This document shows positions 3 through 64,000 of a DNA stretch of 64,000 nt, piece by piece. The stretch's first letter is position 1, and the number at the start of each line of letters is the position of its first letter. The notes beneath the pieces are model-generated. The model was not told the DNA's origin and did no database searches. It saw only the letters and a program-made list of their open reading frames with translations. A program made the position numbers and the translations under genes. Source of the stretch: Asterella californica (lineage: Eukaryota; Streptophyta; Marchantiopsida; Marchantiales; Aytoniaceae); assembly GCA_036924285.1 (NCBI GenBank), contig JAYKYS010000006.1:29672001-29736000 (forward strand), given 5' to 3'.

Positions 3-335
3 GCTTGCCCCAACATCAAGGTAACTGTGGGTGACATCAGTGATGTTCAGAATTTCTTTGTGCAGGACATGTCAACCTATCCTATCATTCTAGGGCAGCC
101 TTACATTACAGCTGTTAGAATGGAGACACGAGTTATGGATGATGGTTCAGCTTATGCTAGGATACGTAGTAGAGATGGCAAAAGAGCTGTTCAGTTTTTG
201 ACCGTTGCTGCAGAACATGAGAGGAATCGTGATAGCTTGAGAGACCGTCCACTACCTAAGATTACTCAGGAGTTTAGAGAGTCTAGGGGTTTTGGCAGAG
301 TACCATTGAAGAGCGAGACTTCAACGGTACAGTAG
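3..335 (+). CDS. Retrotransposon aspartic protease, C-terminal end (partial)
   Basis: The frame is open from the left edge to a stop at 333-335. It carries the late aspartic-protease signature PIILGQPY, comparable to the ILGxxFL motif that closes retroelement proteases; the catalytic DTG/DSG triad must lie upstream of the window. The polymerase frame begins in another phase (open from 287) and overlaps this one by about 49 bases, so reaching pol needs a -1 shift, or a one-base indel has split a once continuous gag-pol. No initiation codon is expected because this is the middle of a polyprotein. Confidence 0.7.
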   Translation, partial: ACPNIKVTVGDISDVQNFFVQDMSTYPIILGQPYITAVRMETRVMDDGSAYARIRSRDGKRAVQFLTVAAEHERNRDSLRDRPLPKITQEFRESRGFGRVPLKSETSTVQ

Positions 336-394
336 AGATAGGATTCTCGCCTGATCCAGTAGAGCAGGAAGCTTTATCCACTAGCTTCTTAGGG

Positions 395-3300
395 TTGACA
401 TCATGTGGATCAGTGTGTTATAGGAAGGTTGAGAATCTGAAGAGGTTTGAGAGGCAACATGTGAAGAATGTACAACAATCTTTGTGGGATAGTGGAGAGT
501 TAGCAGGAGATGAATACATATCTGGGGTGTTTGAAGAACAGTATTTGATAGATACTATAGGGGAGTTGAAATCTATAGTAGAAAGTTCTATAGATGATGT
601 AGATAGAGTGGTGAGAGTGAGCTCCAAGGAGCTTTATGATGTAATTGATAAGTTTATAGATCGGCAAGAGGTGTATGTGGAGACCAAGTACAAGTCAGTG
701 GCAAAGAAAGTCAAACCAGTGGCTTTGCCTTTACCACTCGATTACAATCAGAAGATGGAGCAAGCTGCACGAGAGCCGACGCTCAGAGGACCGAGAAGAA
801 TTGGGCACCAGTTCACAGAAACAACACTGAAGGAGCTGAAGATTGGAGGTGATGGATTTCTTACCGAGCAAGAGAAGAAGAGCTTCAGGGAGATGCTATC
901 TAGGCATGGTAAGGCGTTTGCATTTGAGTCACATGAAGTAGGATGTGTAGATCCAAGTGTAGTTGCACCTATGGTAATCTTTACTATACCGCATGTGCCT
1001 TGGAATCTACGTCCTATCCCTGTGCCTAGAGCTCATCTGCCAAAGCTGATAGACTTGCTCAATGAGAGGATTAGGATGGGTATCTTGGAACCGTCTATAG
1101 CTCCCTATTCTAGCAGATGGTTTACTGTTCCGAAGAAGAGTGGAGCTTTGAGGTTTATCCAAGATATGCAGCCAGTTAACAAGGTGACTATCAGGAATAT
1201 GGGTATAGGACCTATTGTAGACGAGTTTGCAGAGGCTTTTGCTGGTCGTGCTATCTATTCCATGGGAGACTTATATTCAGGTTATGACCAGTTTCAATTA
1301 TCCTCTGAGAGTAGAGACTTGACTACAATGAGGACACCTTTAGGGTTACTAAGGATGTGCACCTTACCGCAAGGTGCTACCAATTCGGTAGCACATATGA
1401 TGAATGGCATGAACAAAGTTTTGAGGGACTTCATTCCTGAAAAAACTATGCCATTCCTTGATGATGTGCCGATCAAAGGGTGTGCTGAGGAGGAGAAGAA
1501 TGAGGTAAAAGATCAGAGGGGGTGCCGTAAGTTTGTAGCAGATCACATAGCTGATTGTGATAAGATACTGAGTCGATTGGAAGAGGTTCATTTGACTTTA
1601 TCAGGAGCCAAGTCTGTGTTTGGAGTACAAGAGGTGTTAATAGTGGGACATCTGTGTGGATCTTATGGTCGGAAACCTTGTCCAAACAAGGTTGATGCCA
1701 TCCGAAGGATGAAGGAGACATGTGGATCGGTTACTGAGGTGAGAAGGTTTCTAGGAGCATGTGTGTTTTATCATATATGGATTCCACACTTTGCACATGT
1801 AGCAGATCCGTTGTACAAGTTGCTGAGGAAGGGGCAGAGATTTCAGTGGCAAGAGGAGCAAAGCGAGTCTATGAAGAAGTTGAAGGATCTGTTGTCTTCA
1901 CCACCAACTCTACGGAAGGTAACATATGAGTCGGGCAGATCTGTTATCCTTACTGTTGATACTAGTCCTATTGGCATTGGATGGGCTGTAGGACAAGACG
2001 ATGAGGATGGAAATAGATATGTGGTGCGTTTTGGAGCTAAGGTCTTAAGTTCACGACAGAGAGACTACCCTCAGGTCAAGAGAGAGCTATGGGGAGTAGT
2101 TACTGCGATGAAGAGTGATAAGGAATACTTGATAGGAGCACCTGTGGTTGTGGAGACAGATTGTTTACCTCTCTTGGGAATGATCACTAGTTGTACAACT
2201 CCAGATATTGCTATGTTGAGGTGGATAGCATATATCAAGTCCTTGAACCCAGAGTTTAGACATATTGCAAGGAAGGACAATCCTGTGGCAGATATGTTAT
2301 CAAGGGCTAGGTATTACGATGAGAAAGAAATGATAGATGATCAGGAGGATGTGGGAACAGAGTTCTATTCTAGTGCTCTTGCTAGAAGGGATAGAAGCTG
2401 TTTTGCAGCCTCGTTGGAGTTTTTTGAGAAAACTATGTATGATGGCGAGTGGTTGGATCTTGGGCGCTATTTGAGTTCACTGGAAAGGCAAGAAGGCTGG
2501 TCTGATGCAGATTTCAAGAGGATCCGTAGAATAGCTTATGGATACTTTTTACATGGAGGGCATCTATGGAAGCGCCCTAAGCTACAAGGAGGTATACCGC
2601 AACGGGTAGTATGTGACTTGGAATTGCAGCAGAAGCTGATCAAGGAGTTCCATGAGAGTTTATGGGCTGGTCATAGAGGAGTTTGGGCTACATTTGCCAA
2701 GATGAAGGAAAAGTATTGGTGGAAGGGTATGTATAAGGATGTAGTACAGTTTGTTTCATCTTGTATACCTTGCCAGATGTATTCCAACGTACGTCATCGT
2801 GATGGATTGCATCCTACTTATCCTTTAGCCATTCATTACAAATGGGTAGTTGATCTGGTAACTATGCCATTTGGACTTGGACAAATGAGGTATCTAGTCT
2901 TGGCTAGAGAAGATCTATCTAACCAAGTCGAAGGCCGTGCCCTGAGGACGAAGACCACTGCTAGTGTCTGCCGCTTTCTACTTGAAGATGTTATTTGTAG
3001 GTATGGGTGTGTGGGAAAGATCACTGCAGATAGGGGTGAGCTGGATGCACAAGAAGCTGTTGAGTTCTTCAAGCGATTGGGAATCAAGTTGGCGTTAACC
3101 ACTGCTTACAATCCTGAAGGGAATGGCAAGAGCGAAAGAGGTCATCCGCCAATCATCAAAGCTTTGGTAAAAGCTTGCAAGGGTAAGATCCGTGAATGGC
3201 CTAGACTGCTACCATTTGCTTTGTGGGCAGATCGTACAACTCATAGTACCGTTACAGGTTACATGCCAGCAGAGTTGATACTAGGGCAAAAACCTGTGAT

Positions 3301-3799
3301 GCCGATTGAGGAGGTTGTGCCTACTTGGAATGTTTTGCCATGGGAAGATGGTAGAAGTACGGAGGATCTTCTTGCGCTAAGGATCCAGCAGTTAAAACGA
3401 AGACCTGAAGATGTTGCCAAAGCTGTGGAAAGGTTAAAGACTGCTAGAGAGAGAAACAAAGGCAGATTTGATAGGACGCATAGATTACGGCCCAAACCAG
3501 TTAAGGAAGGTGATTGGGTGTTAGTCTATGATAGTAGTCTTGATAATCAGCATAGCGCTATCAGAAAGTTTTCCAAGAGATGGTTTGGACCTTATGTGGT
3601 GTTAGAAGTTTATGATAATGCCACATATTCTTTGAGAGAGTTAGATGGTGCAGTGCTCAAGATACCAGTCGCAGGGAAGAGAATCAAGCTCTTTAGAAGG
3701 AGAGAGGACGACCAGAACATTGCAGAGCTTACTGAGGATGAAGCTGAAGACTCAATGGAGGTTGAAGATGAATTTGAAGCTGAAGCTGAAGAGTCTTGA
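395..3799 (+). CDS. Ty3/gypsy pol: reverse transcriptase, RNase H, integrase
   Basis: An open frame of about 1,134 codons; it is open from 287 and has no convincing ATG, so it is probably made as part of a polyprotein. The reverse transcriptase has its first catalytic Asp in MGDLYSGYD (about residue 292) and an FLDD box (Asp 356-357), a variant of YxDD. RNase H follows with LTVDTS (about Asp 522), KRELWG and ETDCLPL as candidate catalytic residues. Integrase has an HHCC zinc module (FHESLWAGH ... CIPCQ), a D-D-E core (DLVTMPF, ITADRGEL, GKSERG, about residues 820-914) and a GPY motif in RWFGPYVVLEV. All catalytic residues seem intact, so the copy could be young. It copies the element's RNA and inserts the DNA product in the nucleus. 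Confidence 0.9.
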   Translation: MTSCGSVCYRKVENLKRFERQHVKNVQQSLWDSGELAGDEYISGVFEEQYLIDTIGELKSIVESSIDDVDRVVRVSSKELYDVIDKFIDRQEVYVETKYKSVAKKVKPVALPLPLDYNQKMEQAAREPTLRGPRRIGHQFTETTLKELKIGGDGFLTEQEKKSFREMLSRHGKAFAFESHEVGCVDPSVVAPMVIFTIPHVPWNLRPIPVPRAHLPKLIDLLNERIRMGILEPSIAPYSSRWFTVPKKSGALRFIQDMQPVNKVTIRNMGIGPIVDEFAEAFAGRAIYSMGDLYSGYDQFQLSSESRDLTTMRTPLGLLRMCTLPQGATNSVAHMMNGMNKVLRDFIPEKTMPFLDDVPIKGCAEEEKNEVKDQRGCRKFVADHIADCDKILSRLEEVHLTLSGAKSVFGVQEVLIVGHLCGSYGRKPCPNKVDAIRRMKETCGSVTEVRRFLGACVFYHIWIPHFAHVADPLYKLLRKGQRFQWQEEQSESMKKLKDLLSSPPTLRKVTYESGRSVILTVDTSPIGIGWAVGQDDEDGNRYVVRFGAKVLSSRQRDYPQVKRELWGVVTAMKSDKEYLIGAPVVVETDCLPLLGMITSCTTPDIAMLRWIAYIKSLNPEFRHIARKDNPVADMLSRARYYDEKEMIDDQEDVGTEFYSSALARRDRSCFAASLEFFEKTMYDGEWLDLGRYLSSLERQEGWSDADFKRIRRIAYGYFLHGGHLWKRPKLQGGIPQRVVCDLELQQKLIKEFHESLWAGHRGVWATFAKMKEKYWWKGMYKDVVQFVSSCIPCQMYSNVRHRDGLHPTYPLAIHYKWVVDLVTMPFGLGQMRYLVLAREDLSNQVEGRALRTKTTASVCRFLLEDVICRYGCVGKITADRGELDAQEAVEFFKRLGIKLALTTAYNPEGNGKSERGHPPIIKALVKACKGKIREWPRLLPFALWADRTTHSTVTGYMPAELILGQKPVMPIEEVVPTWNVLPWEDGRSTEDLLALRIQQLKRRPEDVAKAVERLKTARERNKGRFDRTHRLRPKPVKEGDWVLVYDSSLDNQHSAIRKFSKRWFGPYVVLEVYDNATYSLRELDGAVLKIPVAGKRIKLFRRREDDQNIAELTEDEAEDSMEVEDEFEAEAEES

Positions 3800-5057: not shown

Positions 5058-6617
5058 CTACCAGTGAGACCTAAATTTCGCTTTTGAGCATATCAGAGGA
5101 TCATACACTCCTGTGTGAGTGTTTATAGCTCCTGTCGTGACCTGAAAGCCAACCTCTTGAGTAAACAACCACAGCCAGAAGCCCAGCGCTTTCCTAGGTA
5201 GACGGATCACACTCCGACACCGTACATTCATTTGGATGTGTTGTCCACAATGCCCGTGGACAACTTCAGGGAATACATCTGAAACAGCTCTTTCTAAGCC
5301 CTTCTGTCTATCGCTGATTATCACAGTCTGAGGAGAAATAATACCATGTATAGAGTTGCGGAGATGTTGACAGAACCATGTCCAGTTTGCAGTGTCTTCT
5401 TGTGGTGCAACTGCGAAGCCTAAAATGATTGCTTCATTTGCACCATCCAACACTGAAGCTAGAAATATTTGGCATGGAAACTTTCTGGACTTGCTATGAC
5501 AAGCATCCAAACATATCACTTTCTGACACAAAGGAAATATATCACGAGTGGCACTAGGACACACATAATATCTACTAAATATTGTTGTGTTACATTCCCA
5601 AGTACCCCAATCCACGACTGCCATGGGATCTACTTCAAGTATACGTCTACATACAGAAGGAATGTAATAGAAGGATGATGCTTGATTACCCTCCAACCAG
5701 TCCCGAGAATGCTCTCGACTCCTCCACACCTGATAGTAAGGAGCCCTCTTATTGAATGTAGTCCGAAGATCTTCCATGAGATTTTGTATGGGAGTGTTGG
5801 GGTCAATGGCGACTCTGTTACACATGACTGCAGCAAGGAATTTCGAGTTCGATGCAGGTCCACGCCAGTATCCGATCTGACTAAGACAACTGTGCTCTAA
5901 ATCACAAATAGTAATAGTAATTCGTCTTGTGAACTTGCCCTTCTGTGCTCTAACTCTCCATTTGCATGGATGCTCCATATCACTATCTCGAGCATTAGCC
6001 CCATAAAAGGTAGTTCTCCCAGCGGATTGATATCGAAATCTTTCACCACAATGACCGTTAACTGATTCTCTTCTTGATTGACCTTGTGGAGGTTCTGACC
6101 GACCAGCTGCAAGCTGCCTTACTGAGGCTCTACGTCTTTGTGTATATTCGTGGAAGCTACGAGGCTGACTGTTTCTGTGACTCGTTTCAGCACTATTTGA
6201 TGTTACAGATCTATCTTCGAATAATTTTCTACAACGAGCCTTCGCTCCATACCTGCACACTCTAACTCTATAGTTTTGAGAGTTTTTCAATTTATGACTC
6301 GCTCGGCTATTCAAAAAACACCAACAGTCAACGGCGAAATCGAACTCCTTAAAGGATTCAAATTCTGATCCGAGACACACTTTGCATGCAAGAGCTCTCA
6401 AGGACTCCAAAGTCTTGCCTTGGAGTAACCGATTCACTCTTCTCGCATCGGTCATTTCTCGTCGCCATCTTTCTAGCACGCTCTCCTCAATAAGACCCTC
6501 AGAACGTACATCCATAGTGAAGCTCCTTTCTTCATCTTCGAAATGCAATCCGTCTAAACAATCATCATTGTCGCTCTCAATATCGAGATTCATAACATTG
6601 TATCGTTCAGTCGGCAT
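5058..6617 (-). CDS. MuDR/MULE-family transposase, C-terminally incomplete
   Basis: A frame of about 519 codons from an ATG at 6617; it can be extended to 6707 only through a GTG. The C-terminal half matches the MULE transposase domain: VICLDACHSK carries the first catalytic Asp (about residue 370) and VIISDRQKGLERAV the second (about 435), followed by the Cys/His cluster VHGHCGQHIQMNV. The N-terminal half holds an acidic stretch and a Cys/His region (MEHPCKWRVRA ... DLEHSC) like the FLYWCH/MuDR zinc-binding domain. MURA-type proteins normally continue through a helical insertion, the catalytic Glu and a CCHC SWIM finger; here the frame ends soon after the second Asp, so it is truncated or its end is spliced on. 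Convincing terminal inverted repeats were not found. Confidence 0.75.
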   Translation of the reverse strand: MPTERYNVMNLDIESDNDDCLDGLHFEDEERSFTMDVRSEGLIEESVLERWRREMTDARRVNRLLQGKTLESLRALACKVCLGSEFESFKEFDFAVDCWCFLNSRASHKLKNSQNYRVRVCRYGAKARCRKLFEDRSVTSNSAETSHRNSQPRSFHEYTQRRRASVRQLAAGRSEPPQGQSRRESVNGHCGERFRYQSAGRTTFYGANARDSDMEHPCKWRVRAQKGKFTRRITITICDLEHSCLSQIGYWRGPASNSKFLAAVMCNRVAIDPNTPIQNLMEDLRTTFNKRAPYYQVWRSREHSRDWLEGNQASSFYYIPSVCRRILEVDPMAVVDWGTWECNTTIFSRYYVCPSATRDIFPLCQKVICLDACHSKSRKFPCQIFLASVLDGANEAIILGFAVAPQEDTANWTWFCQHLRNSIHGIISPQTVIISDRQKGLERAVSDVFPEVVHGHCGQHIQMNVRCRSVIRLPRKALGFWLWLFTQEVGFQVTTGAINTHTGVYDPLICSKAKFRSHW

Positions 6618-6903
6618 ATCGTTATCTCTGAATCTGTCCTTCTTATCACTCTCCACCGCCCCGTACTTCTGATCACTCTCCACTCTCCACCGCCCCGCCC
6701 TCTCCACTTCGCTTCGCTCTGATCAATACTCTCGGATTTTTTCAGTTCTATGTGATCTTCGTCATTGTTAATGTGCGGGAACTGTTATGATCTATTTCAA
6801 ATGTGTTATGATCTCTTTTACGCATAAAATTTGTCACTGTCTTGTTCCGATTCTTTCTCGCGAAACACACCCACTCGTCAGACGGTACATTTGCATGTCC
6901 CAA

Positions 6904-50343: not shown

Positions 50344-51190
50344 CTAAAATCTAAGCTTGGAGAAAAACCACCTGTTCTTTCCAGTCTTGAATCTGTCCTC
50401 AAGGATAGCTTTGGTTTCCTGCTCCAGACCAACAACTCGTATTAGAGAGACTATCAAGTCCACCCAGGGAGCTGTCAAGAGTATACATGGTATCCAGAAT
50501 CTTGATGTCATTAACCTTACACGAAAAGATTCAAGCGCAAGATATGACACTGGCAATCCCCAGGTGATTGTACCTTGCGGGCTTCAATCTTCTTTGAAGT
50601 TCCCTCCAACTTATCGTTGGTAACCACGCTCTTCAAATCGACGTCAAGGGTGTACCTAGAGCGTAATTCACAAAGTGAGGCTAAATTGCATATAGTCATC
50701 GCGACACACTAAGCAAATTGCAACAGCAGAGCACGCAAAGAATCATTTACAGCGAAAAAGAGATGCAAGGCCATTGTAATATAATGAACACGCCGGTTCT
50801 CGTGTACTCATGGTAAAAAGCTTCAGTGGTGATACATTCAAATCAGAGTAAACAACGCCCGCCTGCTTCACATCAGATCTCACTGACAGCGCAAGTGTCC
50901 TTAACGAAACAATTCCCGAGACAGGCTTCGAAAAAATACCTGGTGGGCATGATGTGATTGTAGTTGACGATCTTGATAAAGGCTTTCAGGCGAGACCTCT
51001 TGGCGATGGTCTTCGCAGACGCTCTCTTGATCACCTTGCGAGGGTACTTCGCAATTCCTGCGACAAGGGCGTGACCGTACGGTCTGTCCTTAGTTCCCTC
51101 CTCGAAACTCTTAACAATCACAGCCTTGCGACCAGCATACCGGCCCTGCAGAAGGACAACCACCTTGTTTGGCTTCAAAAACTTCACCAT
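50344..51190 (-). CDS. RPL27: 60S ribosomal protein L27 (eL27), three exons
   Basis: Exons on the minus strand are 50940-51190, 50574-50655 and 50344-50418 (or to 50421 if the acceptor three bases earlier is used), all GT-AG. They give 135 residues, exactly the usual plant length. The start is [20 protein letters not shown], the KOW-type fold, then [12 protein letters not shown] and [16 protein letters not shown], and the end is [16 protein letters not shown]. The protein is part of the large cytosolic ribosomal subunit. The frame extends upstream of the ATG only through a non-ATG codon. The exon-3 acceptor is the only ambiguity (an optional extra Gln). Confidence 0.95.
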
Positions 51191-56594: not shown

Positions 56595-58400
56595 TCAGTT
56601 CACGAGCTTCTTTTTCCTAGCGGCTTTGCCTGTACTCCTGAGCTTTGTATTCACATGATTACCCCAAAAGTCTAAGTATATCCTTTCCACTTTCTGTTTC
56701 TGCTTCCTCTTTTGAAGCTTTGTAAGTCGGTGAACAGCGGAAGGTCGTCTTCGCGAAGAATCACTGACCTGTTGGACAGACTTGGCGATCAACTTCCGGA
56801 TCTTACGGGGTCGTGAATCCTCCTCATCACCACTGCCCACACCTTGCTGTCTCTTCTTCTTCTTTCTCTTCTTCGATTTCTTCCTCCCACCTGGAGCCGA
56901 AGCTGGAGTGCGATCAACTCGATCTGGCTCATCCATCCACTTCGGCTCAGGAACAGGCTGAGATTTGTCAATGAGTTCGGACAGTATATCCTCGTCGTGC
57001 CAGTGTACCAGCAGAGCTGTCCTGGCTTTGAGGAAAACTTTTCTCACATCTAGGATTCTGTAGGTACCCTTAGCAATATCCGAAGTAGGATCTAACGGAT
57101 CTTCGCACGAGAGGAGTTCGGGGTTGCTGCCCTTCACCCACCCTCTAACGTGCTTGGGAGCACAATAACCAGGCCTCGTACATACCACGTCAGTACGGTA
57201 GTCGTGCATCATGCTGAAATGGTTCAAAAACGAAAGCAGAAGAACCCCAAGGTCATGACCTGATCCACTCACTCCAAGGTTCTGCAGATGACTGACTACC
57301 ATATTGATCAGGCAAAAACTTCCAATTCCACCTGTGAAAAGCTCGTTCAGTTTCTTCTGCCCCAAGAAGAACTTGAGAACTAGACAGAGAGGGCGAAGAG
57401 CCTCAAAGTGCTGCACGAAGTGTCGTATTACTGGTACTCCCCTGATACCGTTTGCCACATCAAAAGAAATGTCACATGCAAGACCTGAATTGAACACCAC
57501 TTTTAAGAGTGGCACCTTGGCAAAAGGTATTTGCCTGATTTTCCGGCACTGACCTTGACGCTTCAAGTGTCGACTCAAAGCTGAAAGCCATGACCTTGTC
57601 GAGGGTTTTTGCCAGGTACCATTCTGAACGGGTGATATGACGGCCACATCAATATCACTCGACGGGAGAGCCAAACCAGTGGCTGTGGAACCAAACAAAT
57701 GGACTTCAGCACAAGGCCAAATTTCATGGACCGCTTGTCTTACATACTCCAGCGCGAGTCTCCTCATGTCTATCTGTTCAGCAGTCAGCTCGTGAGTCTC
57801 GCAAAACCTGACAATGTTCCAGTGAAGGTTGGACAATTCAGGTCCTTGACAGATCCGTAAGCTGTGGCACCACTCTCGAGTGTTACTTCCCGTGACCAGC
57901 CTTTCCATATCAATAAAACCTAAACCAGTGGTGGGTGAAGGAACACCTCTCCATTGTGGCCCCTCGTCCACTCGTACTGGAACTTCACCTGATTTTAGCG
58001 GGATCTCGTCACCATTTCTTTCTCTCTCTTGACTGCGAAGAGCAGCTCGTTTTCTTTTCTGCTGCCGAGCTTCATTCTTCTTCCTTTGCTTCAGGGGGAC
58101 AACGGCAACATGCTGATTCGACGATTCCTTATAAGCAGCAAATCGGAACACCTCTGGGCAACCTGCTTTTGAAATCGAGTTATCTTGAAGTTGCATTCTG
58201 ACGAATTCGCCACCCTTCAGTTCCTCTGCGGGGTTCGCCACGTTTAGAATCTGCACGTCGTCATCTTCATCAAGACTGATATATTGTTCTACCTCTTTCA
58301 TGCCAGGAGCAACTCGGTTCGGCGGTCTGCTGTCATCCTCGGAGTCAGAGGAGAGTGCCACAACCCAAGGAGCAGCGTCTGCGACCATCGCAACGCCCAT
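56595..58400 (-). CDS. Non-canonical poly(A) polymerase, TRF4/PAPD5 type
   Basis: A 601-residue intronless frame from an ATG at 58400. Residues 1-180 are acidic then Lys/Arg-rich and poorly conserved. The nucleotidyltransferase domain has HLFGSTATGLALPSSDIDVA (GS 237-238, Asp 249 and 251) and a third Asp in LACDISFD (about 310). The PAP-associated domain has RPLCLVLKFFLGQKKLNELF, GGIGSFCLINMVV, LLLSFLNHFSMMHDY and EDPLDPTSDIAKGTYRI. The tail is strongly basic, like a nucleolar signal. TRF4-type enzymes add short A tails that mark nuclear RNAs for the exosome. All three metal-binding Asp are present, so the enzyme should be active. Which plant TRF4-like branch it belongs to is not resolved. 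Confidence 0.92.
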   Translation of the reverse strand: MGVAMVADAAPWVVALSSDSEDDSRPPNRVAPGMKEVEQYISLDEDDDVQILNVANPAEELKGGEFVRMQLQDNSISKAGCPEVFRFAAYKESSNQHVAVVPLKQRKKNEARQQKRKRAALRSQERERNGDEIPLKSGEVPVRVDEGPQWRGVPSPTTGLGFIDMERLVTGSNTREWCHSLRICQGPELSNLHWNIVRFCETHELTAEQIDMRRLALEYVRQAVHEIWPCAEVHLFGSTATGLALPSSDIDVAVISPVQNGTWQKPSTRSWLSALSRHLKRQGQCRKIRQIPFAKVPLLKVVFNSGLACDISFDVANGIRGVPVIRHFVQHFEALRPLCLVLKFFLGQKKLNELFTGGIGSFCLINMVVSHLQNLGVSGSGHDLGVLLLSFLNHFSMMHDYRTDVVCTRPGYCAPKHVRGWVKGSNPELLSCEDPLDPTSDIAKGTYRILDVRKVFLKARTALLVHWHDEDILSELIDKSQPVPEPKWMDEPDRVDRTPASAPGGRKKSKKRKKKKRQQGVGSGDEEDSRPRKIRKLIAKSVQQVSDSSRRRPSAVHRLTKLQKRKQKQKVERIYLDFWGNHVNTKLRSTGKAARKKKLVN

Positions 58401-61400
58401 GGGTCAGGTCCTCTCCCGCAACTTCGAAGGCCAGAACTACCAGCCCACGCAAGGATCTTCCTCAATCGTCGGTCCGAACATCACTCACTGGAAAACGAGA
58501 GTGGACACGAGGTATGAGTGCCACTCTGCTAAGTACAATGTCGTCCTCATCAAGGCCGTCTATAACGTACATAATATGCGCCATCCAGCAATACAAGGAA
58601 TCAGCAGATTGGATACTTACAAACGCAAGAAGAGATGAACACCAGGACTTATCCAGGAGGAGACGACTGCGGGTTCTCTAATCGGACTAATGATTGACCC
58701 GGGAGGAACGGAGAGAACTAATCAGAAAGGAACTAACAGTGTTGCTAATTTCATAAGAGGAGCACCCCATCTGATTCTTATCGACAAGCAAAGACCGCTT
58801 CGATAACAGGCGAAGGCAGATAGTATCCGGAATGCGTCTGGCCACCAGCAGCAACACTCGACTTTGACTGAGAAGACAGAATGTCGACTAAGCCCTAAAC
58901 TGACGCTCCCAGCTTAACAGACATAACGGACGCCACCAAGGACGCCAAACAAGTCTACGAATCTCCGAAACATTTCAATCGTGGCAACACCTCCGACATT
59001 ACACCAAAAAAGAAAGCCAGGCATTTCCGATCAAAGTCGCATTGACATGACCCGTTGCACAAATATAACCGAGAGACAATGCACGGATACAAGGAAAGGC
59101 TCCGTATAATCACTCCACGAAAGCCAAGAGTCAAGACGGCAGAAACGGAGTGATGTTGCAACGTATGGAGCCTAATGATCTTCAGTGGAGATAATTCTTC
59201 ATTCTGAATAGCGTAGCACCAAGCGGCGGATGAATAAAAGGAGATCACAGCTGAACGCCCCACAACGGAGCAACAGGACTTCCTTGGCCCACACAGATCT
59301 CCGACGCAGACACGGAACATTCTTGAAAAGAAAATTCATACGACTCCAAGCTCAAAGTTGGTATAGCAATGCATATCAAACCGAGAAACAGCGCGGAAGG
59401 CCTGCCATGATATCCTTGCCGATAAGGAGCGGCATATTTAGGGGCTACATCTCCCAACAAACAACATTTTGGAAACGCAGTTGCAAAGACATGGCCATCC
59501 TCATCGGAAACAGCCCCCTGAACGACTGATAACATCGCCAACAGCGTACGGAAAAGGGAGTGAGAGACTTACCATAGAAAATTCCGACAAGGAAGAAAGC
59601 TACCGTAGGGCTGGTCGCCGAATTAGAGGAACTGAAGGGGAGCAGACGGAGGGAAGCCCAATTACTGCACAGTGACGTGACAGGAACGTGTGAAGGATGT
59701 CTTCACTTTGAAAGCCACGGTAGTGCAGCGCAACACGGTGCAGTGGCCCGAAACCAGCATCCAACAGAATATGCTATATATACTACTGTATTTCCTGTGG
59801 CGGCGGTCTCGCTGTTTCTTCGAGAACGACATTTCTTGGAGTCTGCGACTCTGCATGACGAGTTTACTAGATAACGCACTTTCAGGACGAGACTAACTTC
59901 AAGCAATCTCTCGGATTCTCTCCATCGTTCAAGCTTTACACGAAGTATGCCGAGCGATAGTTGTGACTCACGATGAGGACGGAATTTCACCAATGAACGA
60001 CTTTTATACCCCTAAATCCAATCCTAATAGTTAGTTCTTTAGCTGTAATTAAATTTGGCACGCACCACTGGGAGTATTTAGACCCCCAGTCGCCACTGAA
60101 ATGACTCCGAGGAGCCGGATCGCGGTTCCGTTAGGAGCCACTCCATTTCCCATCGGGTCATAGCCTGGACGTGTACGCTTTTGGCTCCTCGTTGGAGAGC
60201 CCGTCGGAATTGCCCTCTTGATGTTAGTTCCCTCTGTCTAATGTAATAAGGGAATAGTAATATACTACAGGTGCAATAATCTAATAGTTATATATCCTCG
60301 GGGTGTAATGAGACAGTTTGGCACTTTTACGCCGAGATTGTTCACAGTGCCTCACGTTGGACGTTTCGTGTCCTCGCTTCTTGTGACGGACGGGAACTTA
60401 TCGAGAAAGTTCTCTCCAGTTCTCATTGGGACAGTCATGACCAAGATTAGCCCTGTTTGCATATTGTGGTGACTCTTTATATACGTACATTACGATTTTG
60501 CTCTCTGAAACGTTCGATGGCAAATAGTAAAATAGAATCTTCTTTTTGAATGTGAATTTCTTTGAAAACACTTGAATGTGAACTTCTTTGAAGATCGTTA
60601 ACTTTTTTTTGCCTTCTTGTACCATTTTTTCTTTAGTCAATAAATACATGAAGCTTGATAACCGCTTAACCGATTTAGAACAACTTACTAGTCTTTTGCG
60701 AATCTCTATTCTTAATTTGAAATTTTAGAACATAGATGAAGATGTGACTTCAGAATGAAAAATATTTAGACAACGTTTCCGCTATCGATGATCAAATCAA
60801 AACACAAAAGATCAATGGAAGATCAAGACGAGACTATAATCTCTAATGGATGTTTAAAATAAAAAAATAAAATAAATTTCACACCACACTCTTCCCATTC
60901 AACTTCAACATACAAATCTAAACTTTATTATCCCATTAACGAATCAAAAACTCATAAACATTACACAATGTTTGTTCTCTCACATAAAGAGTGAAAGACT
61001 CCTGAGCTGACAAATTGTCTTCTTCTACCCGTACTACTAGAATTTAGCTCTTGATTCTAAATCTCTCTCTGAAACAAACTGTCTTCCACGCTTTCTCAAT
61101 GCTCACTCAAAAATCATAGATTTCTCTTCAAACGTTACTACTAGAATTTTGCTCTCGTTCCTAAATCTCTCTGAAACAAACTATCTTTCAACGCTTTCTA
61201 ATTGAATAAATTGAAAATCAAAATCTAATTTCTCTCAAGAGCCTTTAGGACTAACAATCAGGCGACCAGATCTCTCCCTGATTCTAAGACTTCAGTTCTC
61301 AGCCTCTAGTCTCAATCTCTGTGCACTTTTCTCTCCTCCGGCTCCTGGCTTCCAGCTTCTCTCTCTCTAATGTCCGTTTTCCCCTTCCTTTGCCTTAGAT

Positions 61401-62604: not shown

Positions 62605-63207
62605 TCAGGCTTTGCCCGCTTTGCCCGCTCTGAACACTGCGAACTTCGATTTCGTTGAGTAGATGTACTCGATTCCCTGAGATTTTAAAAAGTCTCCGAG
62701 TACCTGCCGAACTCCCTCGGGATCGGTGGACTCACATTCGACTTCGTAGGTGGTTCCGAAGTCATATTGCGTTTCATCCAGCTCGATCTTGAGCCCCTCC
62801 CAGCTGAACACATTTCGCACGTTCCGAAACCCCCCTAAACAGATAAATTCTTTACAGCCAAACTCAGCCACCACCTTGTTCAGCAAACTGCTATCAGTAG
62901 ATGCCAATCTCCACGGCTCTGCAACACAAGCTCGTCCTAGAGAAACGTCAATATCTTCTTCCAATTCCTCTCCCCGGCTAATCCCGTCTACAATCACAGC
63001 ATTCCCCTTGAATGTGACAACGCACTTGCTATCACCATTATAGAACCGCAACCTCAAAACAGCTCGCTTCGAACTAAGCTGTTTGTCGGCACCATCGAAG
63101 AAAACATTTTCTTGGATGTGAGTGACCTCGTGAAAGGCCTTCAGTGACGCCGCGACTTTCTCATGAGCTTCAGGACCTGGTAGCTTCAGCTTCACTTCTA
63201 CCTCCAT
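62605..63207 (-). CDS. TTM3: Triphosphate tunnel metalloenzyme (CYTH domain), TTM3-like
   Basis: 200 residues from the first ATG, at 63207; a longer frame to 63285 would need a GTG. It opens MEVEVKLKLPG, in which E-V-E-V-K is the ExExK signature of CYTH/TTM proteins whose beta-barrel tunnel binds triphosphate and metal. Later come the Arg/Lys strands AVLRLRFYN and CVVTFKGNA, the acidic RGEELEEDI and LKIELDETQYDFGTTYEVE, and the final YSTKSKFAVFR. Plant TTM3 hydrolyses tripolyphosphate. It starts 109 bases after the CDC26 stop on the same strand; in other plants these two are read from one bicistronic mRNA. No intron. Confidence 0.92.
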   Translation of the reverse strand: MEVEVKLKLPGPEAHEKVAASLKAFHEVTHIQENVFFDGADKQLSSKRAVLRLRFYNGDSKCVVTFKGNAVIVDGISRGEELEEDIDVSLGRACVAEPWRLASTDSSLLNKVVAEFGCKEFICLGGFRNVRNVFSWEGLKIELDETQYDFGTTYEVECESTDPEGVRQVLGDFLKSQGIEYIYSTKSKFAVFRAGKAGKA

Positions 63208-63316
63208 AGCGGAAAAGAAAGTAAGGACCAAGGCGAATTGCAATCCAAGTGAAGTTAAATCCGACCAATCCAATCTAAGAAACACACGAAGGAAGTGCTG
63301 GACCCACTCGCCTCTA

Positions 63317-63529
63317 CTACTTATTGAAGCCTATGCGTTGGGCAACGGAAAGTTTAGGGCGAGTTTCGGTGACTTGAGGGGTCGCTGAGCCACCCGCAGA
63401 ACCGGCAGACGAGGAAGACGCAGCAGCAGCAGCTTGCGATGATGCAGCAGCGCGACGTCGTGCTTGCTCTAAATCCTCTTTGTCATCTGCCTCCTTAAAT
63501 TCCAACCTCGTCGGTTTGCGCTTCAGCAT
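63317..63529 (-). CDS. CDC26: APC/C subunit CDC26 (small, 70 aa)
   Basis: ATG at 63529, stop at 63317. CDC26 is a small subunit of the anaphase-promoting complex, the ubiquitin ligase that drives exit from mitosis; its N-terminus lies in the TPR groove of CDC16 (APC6) and stabilises it. The frame opens MLKRKPTRLEF, matching the conserved CDC26 start (MLRRKPT type), followed by the acidic DDKEDLEQARRRAA helix, an Ala/Ser-rich linker and the end LSVAQRIGFNK, as in plant CDC26 proteins. TTM3 follows on the same strand, and CDC16, its binding partner, diverges on the other side. Confidence 0.9.
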   Translation of the reverse strand: MLKRKPTRLEFKEADDKEDLEQARRRAAASSQAAAAASSSSAGSAGGSATPQVTETRPKLSVAQRIGFNK

Positions 63530-63743
63530 CTTCCCTCCCTGCTCGTCAATTCTGCTTCCGCTTGTGAACTTCCTTCCTCTCTACTCACTCCCAGAACACC
63601 TTTAGCCACGAGAGTAGTCCCGTCATGGAATCTTCCAAAGATTCTTTCTGGACGTACGTGATCGATGGGCGCGCTGTATCCGACGGAGGAGGCTCTTTTG
63701 GGTCAGGAAGAGCGGGAAGAGGGGATTGCAAATTAACGAAGTT
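63530..63743. promoter_or_regulatory. Shared bidirectional promoter of CDC26-TTM3 and CDC16
   Basis: Only 301 bases separate the CDC26 ATG (minus) from the CDC16 ATG at 63831 (plus), so both promoters and leaders must sit in this interval or overlap. No TATA box was identified. This is inference from spacing. Confidence 0.6.
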
Positions 63744-63834
63744 ATGGGATCAGAGGAGCGAACCCTTCCCGAGCGGAAGAGGAAGAGAAACATTGACAAC
63801 GCGGTCGAGGTGGTCGAGGACGTTGTCGCGATGA
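63625..63834 (+). promoter_or_regulatory. 69-codon upstream ORF overlapping the CDC16 start by ATGA
   Basis: ATG at 63625 opens a frame that ends with a TGA at 63832-63834, inside the ATGA formed with the CDC16 ATG at 63831. If it lies in the CDC16 leader, stop and start codons are placed for termination-reinitiation. It has no recognisable domain. Confidence 0.35.
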
Positions 63835-64000
63835 GGGAAATGGACTTGGAGAAGCTGCGATCGGTGGTGCGCGATTGCCTGGGGAAGCACCTCTACTCGT
63901 CTGCGATTTTTTTTGCAGACAAATTAGCCACAATGGCTGGGAATACGCCCCAAGATTTATATATGCAGGCGCAGGCTCTGTACCTCGGGAAGGAGTATCG
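63831..64000 (+). CDS. CDC16: APC/C subunit CDC16/APC6, N-terminus (runs off the window)
   Basis: The visible 56 residues open MREMDLEKLRSVVRDCLGKH and contain YSSAIFFADKLATMAG and DLYMQAQALYLGKEY, closely matching the first TPR region of plant CDC16/APC6 (MREEx.EKLRGVVRDxxSKHLY..., MQAQALFLGR type). CDC16 is a TPR scaffold of the anaphase-promoting complex that holds CDC26. An in-frame ATG at 63744 would add 29 residues including a basic RKRKR stretch; I prefer 63831 because known homologues start there. The rest of the gene is outside the window. It is divergent from CDC26. Confidence 0.9.
   Translation, partial: MREMDLEKLRSVVRDCLGKHLYSSAIFFADKLATMAGNTPQDLYMQAQALYLGKEY

Follow-up and report, generated by a model that had tools for sequence, protein, structure and literature searches.

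The window analysed here is a stretch of 64,000 nucleotides from Asterella californica (C526:29672001-29736000). At its right-hand end lie three genes. Two of these, CDC26 and TTM3, are read on the minus strand. The third, CDC16 (also called APC6), faces CDC26 from the plus strand and runs out of the window (Table 1). This layout is real, and the three genes are whole.

Table 1. Features at the CDC26-CDC16 locus, in window coordinates
Feature	Position	Strand	Remarks
TTM3 ORF, CYTH/triphosphate tunnel metalloenzyme	62605..63207	-	200 aa; Pfam CYTH 86.8 bits
Intercistronic spacer	63208..63316	-	109 nt between CDC26 and TTM3
CDC26 ORF, upstream cistron of the CDC26-TTM3 pair	63317..63529	-	70 aa; Pfam and genome search
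Intergenic stretch, putative shared promoter	63530..63743		214 nt, from the CDC26 ATG to the first in-frame CDC16 ATG
CDC16/APC6, first 257 nt in the window	63744..64000	+	frame runs on to the stop at 65478-65480 (L002:744-2480)

Consider first the minus-strand arm. The initial annotation had placed CDC26 and TTM3 on this strand, 109 bases apart; the ORF coordinates and Pfam confirm this, with CDC26 directly upstream of TTM3. The CDC26 protein scores 31.1 bits against the Pfam family ANAPC_CDC26 (cut-off 24.5), and a second in-frame TAG follows its reading frame (63529-63317). Taken whole, it gives weak matches to the human CDC26 chains in the PDB (E 0.0092-0.048). Its N-terminal peptide is conserved: residues 1-12 read MLKRKPTRLEFK here and MLRRKPTRLELK in human CDC26, with 2 positions unlike. 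In human CDC26, this N-terminus is the part that is inserted into CDC16, and PDB entry 3hym contains chains of both proteins.

The second cistron encodes a protein that aligns across nearly its full length with PDB chains 3v85 and 5a5y (E 6e-51), which we take to be Arabidopsis TTM3. Enzymes of the CYTH class carry the signature ExExK. Here, the N-terminus is MEVEVK, the same as in chain 3v85 at that point.

That CDC26 and TTM3 form a bicistron in plants had been noted in the initial annotation as known, and it is indeed documented for land plants and green algae (PMC11291117, PMC7943633). In Arabidopsis the two proteins are translated from one mRNA (PMC7943633), and in Chlamydomonas the pair is listed among the high-confidence bicistronic loci (PMC11291117). 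PMC9768141 repeats the report of a bicistron, and PMC10324617 bears on TTM enzymes only.

How might TTM3 be translated from such an mRNA? The spacer between the cistrons is free of ATGs and also of AATAAA, AATGAA, ATTAAA and TGTA, the four words tested as polyadenylation-like. Between the two start codons lies 1 other ATG, which has C at -3 and opens a frame of five codons, and the TTM3 ATG has G at both -3 and +4. These contexts permit leaky scanning or re-initiation at TTM3. It is tempting, of course, to go further, and to take the depletion of ATGs as proof of leaky scanning. This argument was rejected, since the scarcity is not robust. It has P 0.044 under single-base shuffles, but loses significance under a first-order Markov model (1 ATG observed, 2.9 expected on average, P 0.20) and under synonymous redrawing of the CDC26 codons (1 observed, 0.94 expected, P 0.79).

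From 63618 on, the CDC16 frame of the other strand has no stop within the window, and it offers in-frame ATGs at 63744, 63831 and 63840; Met1 of human CDC16 aligns with the last of these. DNA read past the window, which overlaps the window exactly at the expected place, delivers an intact, intron-free frame of 578 codons (or 549, by the start chosen). In its 549-residue version the protein aligns with human CDC16 over residues 4-530 (E 5e-130) and with PDB chain 3hym_B over residues 237-530 (E 1.4e-95). It is, in other words, a full-length TPR protein: TPR families are matched, and the alignable part includes the half that was crystallised with CDC26. The initial annotation had allowed that CDC16 might prove, downstream of 64000, to be a truncated copy. 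This objection fails, because the frame is whole to its stop codon, ending at 65480, and is aligned with human CDC16 and 3hym_B.

A second ORF, of 69 codons and in another frame, overlaps the beginning of this one (63625..63834, plus strand); its TGA overlaps the CDC16 ATG at 63831 in the string ATGA. It would be an upstream ORF if the CDC16 mRNA starts before 63625. It may also be due to chance.

The distance between the start codons of CDC26 and CDC16 depends on which ATG is used, being 214, 301 or 310 nt for the ATG at 63744, 63831 or 63840. The separation of 301 bases first reported is correct for the second of these, but not as the sole value. With any of the three, the genes are adjacent and on opposite strands, and their start codons lie well within 1000 bp of each other. 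In a bidirectional gene pair, as defined in PMC2648788, two genes on opposite strands have transcript starts separated by no more than 1000 bp, and the layout of the start codons here agrees with this.

The intergenic stretch itself has a GC content of 0.52, compared with 0.43 for the window. A pattern scan of 63530-63860 found no match to a TATA box, an E2F site, the core MSA motif (AACGG), a site II element or a telo-box. Thus, the region gives no visible sign of the cell-cycle control one might have looked for, no core motif being matched between CDC26 and CDC16. One CCGACGG at 63680 fits a looser, MSA-like pattern, and ACGTACGT lies at 63652-63659; neither was given any weight. Rfam at gathering scores gave 0 matches, as did a search for tRNA genes. 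A scan for promoters of the sigma-70 type was set aside as inapplicable to plants.

Is the neighbourhood unique? Searches of the organism's own genome covered 516.7 Mb in 773 contigs. Those made with protein queries score the best candidates only and ignore introns. They gave 1 match for TTM3, 1 full-length and 1 partial match for CDC26, and 1 full match for CDC16 together with 1 partial match that has an internal stop; each of the three genes has, therefore, one full match. A search with the DNA of 63400-64000 gave 4 matches, these being the locus itself, two pieces of a single fragment on contig C419, and one fragment on contig C32. Because the CDC26 protein search missed the fragment on C32, the copy counts from protein searches are lower bounds, and strongly diverged extra copies could have been missed by them. 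Farther afield, patterns for TTM3 and CDC26 gave 21 and 600 matches in viral contigs, and a pattern for the CDC16 N-terminus gave 34 in prokaryote contigs; no relative was confirmed among any of these.

The fragment on C419 (C419:15317167-15317399; L006:4967-5199) preserves part of the divergent arrangement in a copy independent of the locus. Its 233 nt join window positions 63437-63513 to 63843-63999, with identities of 73/77 and 148/157 in the two pieces (which have one base in common) and 220/233 overall. A middle of ~330 nt is missing, and the starts of CDC26 and CDC16 are still divergent. It has, among other differences, amino-acid changes and, in CDC16, a stop codon, and is thus most likely a dead copy. 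Around it, no inverted-repeat pair lies close by; the single listed pair measures 17 nt, with 82% complementarity and 4.5 kb between its members.

This dead copy, if such it is, is nevertheless informative. It keeps the divergent order; therefore the neighbourhood is no assembly slip, and is older than that copy. An error of assembly or annotation that joined two unlinked genes has nothing in its favour; it is essentially refuted and has practically no probability left, given a continuous contig of 32.4 Mb, the absence of any N in the 20 kb examined, and a diverged fragment on another contig with the same divergent order.

The fragment on C32 (C32:2907265-2907511; L013:4965-5211) matches window 63452-63702 at 79%, and covers the CDC26 leader and the first codons. 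Its ungapped identity is 133/169 upstream and 67/77 within the coding sequence; 6 columns of the alignment are gapped. A patatin-like frame (PF11815, PF01734; L013:6954-8582) lies on the same strand ~1.7 kb downstream, and the 10 kb around the fragment hold no relative of TTM3 or CDC16 (best E 1.3 and 0.16). One might imagine that this fragment represents the site as it was before CDC16 arrived. The idea finds no support, because beyond the fragment only the segment 3979-5191 and one 36-nt hit link L013 to the extended window. The segment 3979-5191, which recurs near the C32 fragment at 82%, belongs to the far end of the window. There, a Ty3/gypsy-like pol frame (287-3796) adjoins a MULE transposase frame (5061-6722).

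Where CDC16 came from is a separate question. Introns are known from CDC16 genes of other plants. As a control for introns here, the RPL27 gene (ribosomal protein L27e, 50654-50947) has a GT-AG intron of ~285 nt; the PIG-S and eIF5A ORFs match parts of their profiles only. The window also holds a single-exon frame of 602 aa on the minus strand (56598-58403), poly(A)-polymerase-like and of the TRF4/Cid1 type.

Here, CDC16 is one exon of 578 codons in an intron-containing genome, and no other complete CDC16 emerged from the own-genome search. This is what one would see had CDC16 arisen as a retrogene, inserted upstream of CDC26, that came to use the CDC26 promoter in the opposite direction and displaced an intron-bearing parent. 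However, the other marks that such an event might leave were not found. The own-genome search gave no intron-bearing parent; the 2 kb downstream of the stop contain no A-rich tail, the richest 25 nt having 14 A; and within L002:500-4200 CDC16 has no flanking direct repeat of 12 nt or longer. Further, TTM3, CDC26 and the 602-aa polymerase-like ORF each consist of one unbroken frame as well. Retroposition is unlikely, and the single exon could come from either retroposition or intron loss. Retroposition concerns, in any case, only the origin of the gene, and is compatible with a promoter that CDC16 now shares with CDC26.

Such a shared promoter is the reading that we hold likely, if by no means secure: one short stretch may drive both CDC26-TTM3 and CDC16. 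It is held likely because divergent gene pairs in Arabidopsis offer an analogy. Pairs less than 400 bp apart there have a mean co-expression of 0.152, compared with 0.060 for those more than 400 bp apart and 0.014 for random pairs (PMC2851598). The spacing of 214-310 nt fits the closer class. According to an Arabidopsis survey, co-expression is frequent among bidirectional genes, which tend toward a common function (PMC2648788).

Several observations were counted against the reading of the locus as a whole. These are the lack of a match to any promoter motif scanned for, the scarcity of ATGs that proved not to be robust, the fact that the corresponding genes are unlinked in Arabidopsis, and a statement in the introduction of a human study that yeast and human have no bidirectional pairs encoding two subunits of one complex (PMC5572396).

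Much the same observations make it possible, though we would not ourselves favour it, that two housekeeping cell-cycle genes have come to lie head-to-head by chance, and that each relies on a core promoter of its own, the arrangement having no regulatory role. Arabidopsis APC6 and TTM3 lie apart, human CDC26 faces a splicing gene, the yeast and human sets reportedly contain no same-complex pairs, and no common cell-cycle motif was seen in 63530-63860. The case was, moreover, picked from a scan, so some adjacencies of partners are expected. Against chance neighbours stand the gap of 214-310 nt, in which space for two independent promoters is scarce, and the co-expression that is raised at such distances in Arabidopsis, though to a mean of only 0.152 (PMC2851598). 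One might add that, a priori, a partner as upstream neighbour of CDC26 is very improbable, because under random gene order the chance of it would be 1 divided by the number of genes. This a priori chance is not usable as a significance value, because the case was chosen after the fact.

Suppose, then, that the promoter is shared. A region of ~200-300 bp, presumably of open chromatin, would start transcription in both directions. Leftward, it would give a single bicistronic CDC26-TTM3 mRNA; rightward, it would give the mRNA for CDC16. On the bicistronic mRNA, which by analogy with other plants would be made and translated here as well, some ribosomes would translate CDC26 and others would bypass it to reach the start of TTM3. 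The N-terminus of CDC26 would then bind CDC16, a contact expected from relatives of the two proteins in other organisms. Two subunits that must pair would thereby be co-expressed from one switch. The shared promoter and matched dosage are, at this locus, things that we infer only.

A more elaborate version joins this with the origin of CDC16. Here, the locus would be a three-gene unit read in two directions, whose promoter of ~200 bp sets the dose of CDC16, CDC26 and the polyphosphatase, and into which an intron-free CDC16 moved, replacing its ancestor. CDC16 and its obligate small partner CDC26 would then be made in step. This compound reading we consider decidedly improbable.

As to novelty, the initial annotation knew of no description of CDC16 next to CDC26. 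None was found in the literature searched, which consisted mostly of papers outside subscription and included PMC3815023, PMC3095333, PMC7943633 and PMC13398982. The literature searched on mosses, liverworts and bidirectional promoters gave no gene-order data for a CDC26-CDC16 locus, and neither PMC9448001 nor PMC13237563 gave anything useful on liverwort or algal gene names. The CDC26-TTM3 bicistron is already known, while CDC16 facing CDC26 is new within the literature searched. If the shared promoter is true, the locus would join the few bidirectional pairs whose two products belong to one complex, and would allow a test of whether gene order is fitted to the assembly of a complex.

It is useful to compare the locus with systems already known. 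A bicistronic CDC26-TTM3 locus of plants and green algae was reportedly described by Lorenzo-Orts et al. in 2019, a paper cited in PMC11291117 and PMC7943633. The locus in Asterella is like it in that CDC26 precedes TTM3 on the same strand across a short spacer, and in having a conserved CDC26 N-terminus and an intact CYTH enzyme. It is unlike the locus in Arabidopsis, where APC6 (At1g78770; PMC3095333) and TTM3 (At2g11890; PMC6973038) are on different chromosomes; in Asterella, CDC16 lies opposite CDC26 at a distance of 214-310 nt. Human CDC26 is also head-to-head with a neighbour, PRPF4 (PMC3815023), but this partner is a splicing factor and no subunit of the APC/C.

Further parallels come from other complexes. 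Yeast histone gene pairs and human COL4A1-COL4A2 and HSPD1-HSPE1 are binding partners that face each other across a short promoter. In these the function of the promoter is established, whereas for CDC26-CDC16 it is only inferred, and none of them has a bicistronic arm. The histone and collagen IV pairs are exceptions to the statement about yeast and human noted above, and for this reason pairs of partners look rare, but not unknown.
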